Shown here: positions 9,630-62,097 of the stretch, piece by piece
Numbering within the stretch: the stretch's first letter is position 1
How the letters are laid out: every line of letters begins with the position of its first letter
Assembly: GCA_947478845.1 (NCBI GenBank)
Contig: CANJXC010000002.1
Location: 186,001 to 250,000, forward strand
Source: Spirochaetales bacterium
Lineage (GTDB): Bacteria > Spirochaetota > Spirochaetia > JABEVK01
Direction: 5' to 3'
Length of the DNA stretch: 64,000 nt
The notes under the pieces: generated by a model
The model's input: the letters and a program-made list of their open reading frames with translations, nothing else
Told to the model about the DNA's origin: nothing
Databases searched by the model: none
Program-made: the position numbers and the translations under genes

Positions 9630-11114
9630 TCATTCCTCTGTGGATTGATCTTCCTCGTCGTCTTCGTCGATATCGACGGGGATCTCATAGCGCTTTATTT
9701 TGTTTTTGAGGCCTTGGCGGCTGATCATTAGGTTCCGCGAGGTCTGGCTAATGTTATTGTCGCAGTACTTCAAAGACGCAATGATGATGTCTTTCTCGAT
9801 GGCATCGACAAACTCCCGCATATTTACCGGTTCGTGACCAACAGGAAGCTGAATGGTCTTCACGCTGGCCCCCACCCCCTGTTCGGCAGCGTAAATCTCT
9901 GCATTCTCTTTAAGAAGTCGATCAATTTCTTCCATTGTAACGGTTTGCTTTCCTGTCGTCCGCATGGTGAGATTCAGTTTCTCAAGAATCCCTTGAAGTT
10001 CCCGGATATTCCCTGGGAACGAGTACTTAGCCAATAAGTTCTTCTGCTTCGTGTCAAGCTGAGGATAGATATGATTGCTCTTGTGTGCGCAGGCCTCCAT
10101 CAGCGACAGGATATCCTCACGGCGCTCACGGAGGGGAAGGGTTCGAACTTGAAGGGTTGCTATCTTGTGATAAAGGTCTTTACGGAAATCGCCGCGGTCA
10201 GTCTCCCCAATCAGATTCGTGGTACTGCTGACCAGCACCCGCACATCGGCCGATCGCTCCTCTGTTCCGGCCACCGGATAATAAATGCCGTAGGCCAGAA
10301 ACTTCAGCAGCTTCGATTGAAGCGTTTTGGGCAGCAATTGTATGTCTTCAATGAACAAACTGCCTCCCTGACACCTCGAAAGAAAGCCTTCGCGCGCCGG
10401 CTTAGAGCCCGACTTGGAAACCCCAAAAAGTTCGGCTTCCAGGAGTTCCTCGGGAATGGTGGTTGTCGAAAGGCTGAGAAATGGCTCGATGCTGCGGGAG
10501 GACATGTCGTGAAGAATGCGCGCTATCATTTTTTTGCCCGTCCCAGGCTCACCGGTGATATGTACCGGATGGTCGGTAAGGGCGAAAGCCTTGATTTGCT
10601 CCTTGGTCTTCAATACCGAAGGATGGGTGCCAACAAGGGATTGAAGTGGGCTCTCGGCGTTAAACCTCAGCAGGGTGTTTTCGGAAGCAAGCTTGCGTGC
10701 GCTTTCTTCCAAGTTTTTCTCTTCAGAAAGCCTGCGGCGAAGTTGTTTTTGTGCCAGCACCGCTTCTTTGACCTTGCCCAGCAGGACCTGAGATTCAACG
10801 GGTTTGACAAAATAGTGGGAAATGTTGGAGGCGTTGACGGCATCAATCAGATAGTTTGTATCACCGTAGGCTGAAAACATTATTGTGGCGAAGTCTGTCG
10901 TCTTCTTTCTTATCTCTTGCACGAGCGCCACCCCAGACAGGGAGGGCATACGCATGTCGGCAAGCAACAGGTCGAAGGGGTACTTTTCGCAGTACTGGAG
11001 TGCTTTTTTCGGATCTTTAAAAACGAAGGTCTCATAGTCCTGCAAGACGCGCTGGCAGAAGGTCAGGGTTACTTCGTCATCGTCAACAATCACTAGTCTC
11101 GTTAAGTTGGGCAT
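9630..11114 (-). CDS. NtrC-like response regulator lacking the sigma-54 GAFTGA motif
   Basis: A 494-residue protein with three domains. The receiver domain (1-120) has acidic DDD at 11-13, phospho-acceptor D53 in ADMRMP and K104. The AAA+ domain (about 155-385) has Walker A GEPGTGKK (188-195) and an arginine-finger region FRKDLYHKI. A Fis-type helix-turn-helix lies near 440-475, followed by an acidic tail. The GAFTGA loop that contacts sigma-54 is missing: after ELFG the sequence reads VSKSGSKPAREGF. The Walker B acidic pair is E-D instead of D-E. It therefore probably does not activate sigma-54 RNA polymerase, like TyrR-type relatives. No histidine kinase is adjacent. Confidence 0.9.
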   Translation of the reverse strand: MPNLTRLVIVDDDEVTLTFCQRVLQDYETFVFKDPKKALQYCEKYPFDLLLADMRMPSLSGVALVQEIRKKTTDFATIMFSAYGDTNYLIDAVNASNISHYFVKPVESQVLLGKVKEAVLAQKQLRRRLSEEKNLEESARKLASENTLLRFNAESPLQSLVGTHPSVLKTKEQIKAFALTDHPVHITGEPGTGKKMIARILHDMSSRSIEPFLSLSTTTIPEELLEAELFGVSKSGSKPAREGFLSRCQGGSLFIEDIQLLPKTLQSKLLKFLAYGIYYPVAGTEERSADVRVLVSSTTNLIGETDRGDFRKDLYHKIATLQVRTLPLRERREDILSLMEACAHKSNHIYPQLDTKQKNLLAKYSFPGNIRELQGILEKLNLTMRTTGKQTVTMEEIDRLLKENAEIYAAEQGVGASVKTIQLPVGHEPVNMREFVDAIEKDIIIASLKYCDNNISQTSRNLMISRQGLKNKIKRYEIPVDIDEDDEEDQSTEE

Positions 11115-59057: not shown

Positions 59058-60558
59058 ATGAATGCTAAAGGAGTCAACCATGAGCCACTACCACTGCCAA
59101 GGGCCACCCCCGAGTCTCAAGGAGTTTCCAGTCTCGAGCTGGCCAAGTTTGTCGACGCTTTGGATACCAAACTTGCGGAGCTCCACAGCGTGATGGTGGT
59201 CCGCCATGGTCACGTGGTAGCCGAGGGTTGGTGGCGGCCCTACGAGGCCGACTTACCGCACCTGTTGTACTCGCTCACCAAGAGTTTCACTTCCACAGCC
59301 GTAGGTTTGGCAGAGGCCCAAGGCTTGCTTTCGCTGGACGATAAAGTTGTCAGCTACTTCCCGGGCCTCGCCCCAGCCCGGCCTTCCCGTCACCTCGCGG
59401 CCCTGAAGGTGAGGCACTTGCTCACCATGTGTAGTGGCCGGCTTACCGACAGCATTGTACACGCCGTAACCGACCGCACGGGGAACTGGGTAAAAGGTTT
59501 CTTCGCCCAACCGTGGTTGCAGGCCCCCGGTGAGCCTTTTTCCTACGACAGCGGCGCGAGCCATATCTTAGGGGTGATCGTCGAGAAGGTGGCGCAAACC
59601 GACCTGCAAACTTACCTGACGCCCCTGTTGTTTGACCCTCTGGGAATCCAGGTCACTTCTTGGGAAACCGACCCGCAGGGACACCGCACCGGAGGTTTTG
59701 GCCTTTCGCTGAAAACCGAAGATATTGCGAAGTTTGGCCAACTGTACCTTCAAAAAAGGAAACTGGCAGGGCCGTCAGCTCATACCCGCCGGCTGGGTGG
59801 AAAAGGCGACCTCCAAACAGGTGGAAAACGACCGCTTCGCACCTAATTCCAACGCTGATTGGCGGCAAGGCTACGGCTATCAGTTCTGGCAAGGCAGCCA
59901 CGGCAGTTATCGGGCCGACGGGGCCTTTGGTCAGTTCTGCATCGTGGTGCCCGGCAGCGATCTGGTGGTTGCAATTACCGCGGCGCTGAACGACACGCAA
60001 AAAGCCCTCGACCGGGTGTGGCACCTCTTGCCGAGCCTCTCGGAGCAACCCCTGCCCGCCGACCTGGCTAGGAACAAGGCCCTTACAATCCAAATGGGTG
60101 GACTTACCTTGCCCCTGCCTGCCGGTGAACCGCGTTCGCAGCAAGAACCGGCGCTCTCGGCGCGCAAGTTCAGGCTCGAGGGCAATACCCTCGGGGTCCG
60201 AGACGTTTGGGTGGAGTTTGAGGAAAACCGCTTGGTTCTCACCATGGTCGACAAACACGGGACCCACCGGCTCGAGGCAGGCCGGGCGCTTTGGCGCGAG
60301 TCGTTTTGTGACATATTTCCCAAGGCGGAACTCTTTTATCCGAAGGCGCCCGTGGCAAACGCGCGGGTACGTGCCGCCTTCCTTTGGACGGGACCGCAAA
60401 CCTTGGTTATTACCGCTAGGCTGATCGAGACGCCGTTTGCCTATACCCTGACCCTTGGGTTTGAGGAAGGTCGGTTGCACCTCGACGGTCAGGTCAACGT
60501 AACCCTGGGCGCACCGGCCACCTGGCCCCGGCTTTTGGGAGTGGGGCGAAAGCGTTGA
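59058..60558 (+). pseudogene. Beta-lactamase-family serine hydrolase, interrupted by a frameshift
   Basis: Residues from 59058 to about 59757 read a class C/EstB-type serine hydrolase with LPRATPESQGVSS, the SxxK nucleophile in SLTKSFTS (about residue 75) and YDSGASHILG. The frame then breaks at a run of six A (59752-59757) and ends at 59846 in unrelated sequence. The +1 frame continues the family smoothly (GNWQGRQLIPAGWV, YGYQFWQGSH) to 60558. Removing one A restores a protein of about 500 residues. A good SD (AAAGGAG, 59067-59073) points to an ATG at 59080 that is out of frame with the hydrolase start, so a second defect or odd initiation is possible. Confidence 0.85.
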
Positions 60559-60881
60559 TTGGGGAAAGGCTCACCAAGGCCGAACAGGTTCGGGTCAACC
60601 TTTTCCAACCTTCGATTGCCCCCGACAGTACTGGACCCAAGCAGTGGTCCGACGGAAGCGTACGAGGCTTATGCGTGCGAGGCAATTTTGTTTTGGACCT
60701 TCAATGGTCCTTCGGCCGAATTACAGGTGTCCATATTCTAGCTCGAGTGGGAGGAACTTTGATGTTGCGAGTTGATCCATCCCTCAAGTTGCTACGCGAT
60801 GGGCGAACAATTGCTGATCCTAGGGGAACAGCCAGCCTTATTCTCGGCCCAGGCGAGTCCTGCGAGCTGAAGGCCGAATAA
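60555..60881 (+). pseudogene. GH95 alpha-L-fucosidase C-terminal-like fragment
   Basis: A 108-codon frame starting at a TTG that overlaps the hydrolase stop. Residues WSDGSVRGLCVRGNFVLDLQ and the following beta-rich stretch ending GPGESCELKAE resemble the C-terminal domain of glycoside hydrolase family 95 enzymes (typical pattern W-DGSV-GLRARGGF). The catalytic parts of a GH95 enzyme are absent upstream, so it looks like a remnant or a detached domain. The first ~25 residues have no recognisable relation to the family. Confidence 0.5.
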
Positions 60882-61025: not shown

Positions 61026-61556
61026 ATGAAGAGGGTTTTGATTTTGGCGTTGGGCTTATTTTGCCTTTCCCTACCTGCCTTTGCGCAGCTTCAGATCGGC
61101 GGTACAGCCTACTACATGGCACCGCTGGATAAGACGGATCAAGCCAAAAAGCTTTCGATTCACGACTTTCTGTTCGGTGGCGAGGCTCGGCTACTGTTAG
61201 GGCCACTGGAAGGAAGTGCAACTGGTGTGTTCGAACCTCCCGTTACCGATGGCGGGATTGACTATCCTCCCGCCATTTTTGCCATGTTCAGCGGTGGATT
61301 GGGTTTCGATCTGCTCCCCATACTTAGGTTGGGTGGCGAAGTCGGTGTCAATCTCATCCAGCCTTTGGGAGGCTCTGGGGAAGAGAAGGCATTAAACGCT
61401 GGTGCCAACGTCAAGTTGCTCGCTACGGCGCATGTTTTTGGCCTCAACATCGGTGCAAACGCATCGTTTTTCTACCCCAGTTTTGCTGCTATCACCGCTG
61501 TTACAGCGGTTAAGCCAAAACTTTTGTTTGGTTTCAGCGCTCTGCTAGAACTCTAG
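61026..61556 (+). CDS. Putative outer-membrane beta-barrel protein
   Basis: A 176-residue exported protein: signal peptide MKRVLILALGLFCLSLPAFA, then alternating hydrophobic and small residues with many Gly and aromatic positions, typical of small OM barrels (LQIGGTAYYMAPL, LRLGGEVGVNLIQPLG, FGFSALLEL at the C-terminus). The start has AAGGAG 5 nt upstream. It is monocistronic: a repeat-bearing promoter precedes it and a strong terminator follows. No specific family recognised. Confidence 0.78.
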   Translation: MKRVLILALGLFCLSLPAFAQLQIGGTAYYMAPLDKTDQAKKLSIHDFLFGGEARLLLGPLEGSATGVFEPPVTDGGIDYPPAIFAMFSGGLGFDLLPILRLGGEVGVNLIQPLGGSGEEKALNAGANVKLLATAHVFGLNIGANASFFYPSFAAITAVTAVKPKLLFGFSALLEL

Positions 61557-61573: not shown

Positions 61574-61622
61574 AGCCTTTTGGGGCCCGGCTCAAGTGGG
61601 CTTGGCCCCAGAAGGCTTTTTT
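61574..61622. terminator. Bidirectional intrinsic terminator
   Basis: AGCCTT...GGGGCC pairs with GGCCCC...AAGGCT and is followed by six Ts at 61617-61622. On the minus strand the same stem is preceded by A-rich sequence, giving a T-run for the convergent gene, whose stop codon lies at its edge. Confidence 0.85.
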
Positions 61623-62097
61623 ATGGCAGATAGGTGCTGACGTCTAATTCGGTTGCGAAAGTTCCGTTGGTTCCGTACAGGCCATCGTAAACGCTACCGG
61701 GTGCTGACAGGCTTGCCCAAGACTTCGAAGGCAAGCCAGCGTCGAGGAACAGTTTGTCAGCTGCCGGCACGGTGTTCGTGACATCTGTGTCGCCTATGAT
61801 GTAAGCATCGCTAGCGAAGGTCATGGACGTGACCAACCTAGAGCCGTCGCCAAAAGCCTTGAAAAAAGTACTGCCATCACTTGCGACAGCAAGAAAGGAG
61901 TTTCCGCCACTAGCTGGTCCTGCTTCGGCAACAAACATATTCTTGCACCAGAAGTTGTACTTTTTCGAGGCGTAGTCGTAGGTGGCTTTACCTGCAGCAA
62001 TCATTCCTTGAAGCTCAGCCCAGACGCAATCAGGAAATTCCTGAGACGGCCTAGGCAAACCACGCCCTTGGAACCCCCAACAACAATTTGACGCCAT
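61621..62097 (-). CDS. Hypothetical protein
   Basis: A 158-residue frame with coding-like composition but no recognised family and no signal peptide. It has a Cys/Trp-containing start (NCCWGFQGRG) and a C-terminal part rich in Ser, Thr and Asp (DVTNTVPAADKLFLDAGLPS). The SD is weak and the ATG lies under the divergent promoter at 62088-62116. It could be a small cytoplasmic protein or a decayed fragment. Confidence 0.5.
   Translation of the reverse strand: MASNCCWGFQGRGLPRPSQEFPDCVWAELQGMIAAGKATYDYASKKYNFWCKNMFVAEAGPASGGNSFLAVASDGSTFFKAFGDGSRLVTSMTFASDAYIIGDTDVTNTVPAADKLFLDAGLPSKSWASLSAPGSVYDGLYGTNGTFATELDVSTYLP

Follow-up and report, generated by a model that had tools for sequence, protein, structure and literature searches.

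The described family closest to the gene examined here is NF045925, the 3-succinylated cholic acid synthase (BAS-suc) of Bacteroides uniformis, which lies within PF00144 and is described as a beta-lactamase enzyme (PMC11749272). Among the NCBIfam models, it scored best with both halves of the gene and also with three intact relatives, in which most of the profile was covered. The equivalog cut-off of NF045925 is 800 bits, and the scores of the 5' part (181.6 bits) and the 3' part (97.2 bits) fall far below it and outside membership, as do those of the three intact relatives (267.6, 338.5, and 297 bits). Because the scores are so far below the cut-off, we assign the hydrolase to a broader subfamily than NF045925.

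In its organization the locus resembles frameshifted bacterial pseudogenes, with which it shares an apparent one-base change in a short homopolymer, two halves that both remain open, intact copies in relatives, and a decayed neighbor; no difference from them was found. Breaks in homopolymers can also be bypassed during expression. According to PMC6260861, bacterial RNA polymerase needs 7 or more T in a row before it slips, and a still longer run in the case of A, and a study of M.HaeIII under laboratory selection (PMC3812077) describes indels in repeats of 3 to 8 bases that were bypassed to some degree.

A serine hydrolase gene in two reading frames

The window, which is the whole stretch of DNA analyzed, comprises 64,000 nucleotides from a Spirochaetales bacterium. 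An earlier note made from the sequence alone had proposed that a hydrolase gene is split there at a run of six A's (A6; 59752 to 59757, + strand), and this proposal was borne out by the open reading frames, by the continuity of the PF00144 and NF045925 matches, by a switch in a codon model, and by relatives that are in frame. The two parts and the conserved motifs that they carry are as follows:

59058 to 59846, + strand: 5' part of the hydrolase, an open reading frame of 262 amino acids with homology to about 59755 and then an out-of-frame tail (PF00144, E value 2.5e-30)
59752 to 60558, + strand: 3' part of the hydrolase, in the other frame, ending where the relative from the same genus ends
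59271 to 59282, + strand: SLTK, an SxxK-type motif (all 6 aligned sequences have SLTK, SVSK, or SLSK here)
59544 to 59552, + strand: YDS, the putative second (Tyr) motif (YDSG, YDTG, YNTG, YNTP, or YNSG in 6 of 6 aligned sequences)
59911 to 59937, + strand: RADGAFGQF, a conserved region in the 3' part (R[AG]DG[AV][FY]GQ[FY] in 6 of 6 aligned sequences)

The reading frame changes at the A6 run, with the 5' frame open as far as 59846 and the 3' part open to 60558 in a different frame; aside from this break, the roughly 500 codons contain no stop. A frame-switching codon model that was trained on the contig and blind to the finding placed a switch at 59750, and windowed codon scores preferred one frame as far as 59750 and a different one from 59759 onward, the coding scores of both parts being modestly positive. 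PF00144 matched the 5' part with 106.2 bits over profile positions 18 to 247, which exceeds the curated cut-off of 27 and places this part in the family, and matched the 3' part alone with 22.6 bits over positions 247 to 314, which is below that cut-off. Along the 498 positions of NF045925, homology carries on past the break in the other frame, with positions 27 to 245 in the 5' part and positions 244 to 487 following contiguously in the 3' part. The assembled sequence thus does contain the frame break. That the two parts represent two real genes was ruled out by the consecutive profile positions and by the division of the motifs between the parts.

We take SLTK to be the SxxK-type catalytic motif and YDS to be the second (Tyr) motif of the beta-lactamase fold, and RADGAFGQF presumably has the role of the third motif. 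With the conserved motifs divided between the two halves, neither is expected to work as an enzyme by itself, and the 5' product on its own should be inactive.

Intact relatives

A homologue search of 60 genomes gave matches in 21, and a search of GTDB contigs yielded four further loci, three of which (L025, L026, and L027) were read. The earlier note had suggested comparison with related genomes as a check on the break, and the five homologues that were read at the site (these three, L007, and G001) are all uninterrupted, being in frame at the break site and without the A6 run. The closest homologue, G001, belongs to the same genus and has an open frame of 467 amino acids that ends at the equivalent position, with 13 residues near its N terminus masked. 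It is 69.5% identical to the 5' part over 187 columns and 45.9% identical to the 3' part over 266 columns. The 3' part was conserved less than the 5' part in every comparison made, and its low identity is therefore not a sign of decay. With the outgroup L025 as the reference, identity in the 5' part was 53.8% for the broken gene and 56.1% for the intact G001 copy, and in the 3' part 35.3% and 33.6%, respectively, each pair being based on differing numbers of columns.

A DNA search within the genus (three genomes, including the organism's own) found, besides the window, only the G001 copy, and the genomes searched included no second strain of the species. The same contig carries a second PF00144 hydrolase (G000:C2:159277-160083; L001), which has an unbroken frame of 475 codons and is 31% identical to the 5' part.

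The 5' end of the gene

The start of the gene includes a second arrangement in which signal and frame do not agree:

59067 to 59082, + strand: AAAGGAG (59067 to 59073) followed by ATG 59080, which shares its frame with the 3' part and not with the 5' part

The AAAGGAG sequence sits six bases before ATG 59080, while the in-frame ATG 59058 has no motif resembling a Shine-Dalgarno (SD) sequence. It is plausible that another short insertion or deletion, close to the 5' end, has parted this SD-ATG pair from the gene, and it is possible that ATG 59058 is the true start; the N-terminal ends vary among the aligned relatives. Among 159 gene starts chosen by the model, which are imprecise, 92 have no in-frame SD-associated start nearby, and an out-of-frame ATG with a five-base SD motif near the start was found in 4 of the 159 genes and in 3 of the 92 without an in-frame SD start, which makes such an arrangement uncommon.

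The earlier note had treated ATG 59080 as served by the best SD sequence and had argued that its shift and that at the A6 run cancel. The SD-ATG pair is present and agrees in frame with the 3' part, as described, but its role as a lost true start is only suggestive, given the frequency of starts without an SD sequence. Likewise, the arithmetic of the cancellation holds if both shifts are real, but it is functionally irrelevant, because the frame from ATG 59080 comprises 37 codons and stops at 59193.

Frame breaks elsewhere in the assembly

A codon-model scan covered 750 kb, of which 350 kb came from the contig that holds the window and the remainder from 14 other contigs, sampled as 20 stretches of 20 kb. 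In 665 gene parts it returned 18 internal frame switches other than stop/start overlaps, and by eye these look like 12 gene borders, 4 artefacts of segment edges or very short frames, 1 other probable broken gene, and the present gene. When single-base indels were simulated, the scan recovered 225 of 300, so that a few breaks may have been missed. Within 466 segments without internal switches there were 492 homopolymer runs of at least 6 bases, 380 of which were runs of exactly 6 of any base. Because so many runs lie in switch-free segments and broken genes are few, homopolymer errors appear to be uncommon in this assembly, and a recurrent homopolymer artefact was rejected on the basis of the few breaks in the scan.

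The other probable broken gene is of the HupE/UreJ type (L061:10103-11132; G000:C3), with a switch near 10682. A 198-codon frame without a family match is followed by a match to HupE_UreJ_2 that begins only at profile position 30 and has no early start codon.

A GH95 stub downstream

Directly adjoining the hydrolase stop codon on its 3' side is a fragment of a glycosidase gene:

60555 to 60881, + strand: C-terminal stub of a GH95 glycosidase, 108 codons (PF21307, E value 1.4e-12, positions 14 to 73 of 94)

Its coding score is negative in all frames. No other PF21307 match was found in this genome in a search of nine genomes, in which G001 has five, and the GH95 catalytic domain PF22124 had no match in this genome in a search of three, in which G001 has six matches, five of them over the cut-off. 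The most natural reading of the stub is that it is the remnant of a truncated gene, although it may instead be a separate small gene. The locus looks decayed because the gene next to the hydrolase is this stub, whose catalytic domain was found nowhere in the genome. One GH95 gene of G001 (G001:C27; L031, L050) contains an in-frame TAG inside the C-terminal domain, so that decay of GH95 genes may be under way in that species as well.

Origin of the frame break

Among the four explanations that the earlier note had offered, decay is the best supported, by the intact relatives, by the truncated GH95 neighbor, and by the scarcity of other breaks in the sampled assembly. We consider it probable that the locus is an ordinary young pseudogene, formed from a formerly intact hydrolase gene that lost its frame at the A6 run. 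A single site fits one consensus error equally well, and an error in the reads or consensus, with an intact gene in the organism, is unlikely by our own estimate, which was not computed, yet it is the alternative that we weigh most seriously. The break falls exactly in a homopolymer, both halves are still open and conserved, and no further stop occurs in about 500 codons. Against an error stand the low error rate, suggested by the 492 runs and by the fact that only one further gene in 750 kb is likely to be broken, the truncated state of the GH95 neighbor, which is not explicable by a homopolymer error, and the possible second indel at the 5' end. Because no other stop is present and similarity to outgroups is near that of the intact G001 copy, the break represents either very recent decay or an error.

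Expression of the full-length protein across the break, through RNA polymerase slippage at the A6 run or a ribosomal +1 shift at AAA AGG, seems to us very improbable. The P-site AAA could re-pair one base further on, and the M.HaeIII indels offer a precedent for bypass, but none of the five homologues read has the A6 run, leaving nothing conserved, and AGG, at 5.44 per 1,000 codons, is not very rare here. The RNA polymerase study speaks against slippage at A6, a run below its reported threshold, and the M.HaeIII study leaves room for a low level. The transcriptional slippage raised in the earlier note is accordingly disfavored, and it is more improbable still that bypass is frequent enough to supply low levels of full-length hydrolase, with the locus a functional intermediate rather than a pseudogene. 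Programmed frameshifting was rejected, as neither a conserved slippery sequence nor the break occurs in any of the five relatives. Phase variation, in which the A run would act as an on-off switch for the hydrolase within the population, had also been proposed, and a homopolymer does lie inside the gene; but the run comprises only six A's, a length often seen in the switch-free segments, and the run is not conserved in the five relatives, so that we give this idea the least credence of all.

Under the favored reading of recent decay, we infer that the organism itself, and not just the consensus, carries the break, that its product is an inactive protein, and that the gene began to decay recently. 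The ancestor would have been an intact gene of about 470 to 500 codons encoding a PF00144 (class C beta-lactamase-like) serine hydrolase. A one-base change in the length of the A6 run, probably by ordinary replication slippage, would have lost the frame, and translation from the 5' end would halt at 59846, short of the third conserved motif, with no active enzyme expected. A second small indel may have split the SD-ATG pair from the gene, and the adjoining GH95 gene would likewise have been cut to its C-terminal stub. Such a history would fit a loss of accessory carbohydrate- or ester-processing genes, of a kind that the sister species keeps. In annotation, the locus is best given as a frameshifted gene with a GH95 stub behind it, rather than as two proteins or a candidate case of programmed frameshifting; beyond that it has little importance.

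Other flanking genes

Upstream of the hydrolase, on the opposite strand, lies an aldo/keto reductase gene that looks intact. In a synteny comparison with six genomes, this reductase had distant matches only, the best at 38% identity, and the protein encoded at 61026 to 61553 had no match in the same six genomes. Farther downstream, an open reading frame of 158 codons (61621 to 62097, - strand) has no Pfam match, and its middle resembles, by eye, a type IV pilin-like C-terminal region; it may lack its N terminus.
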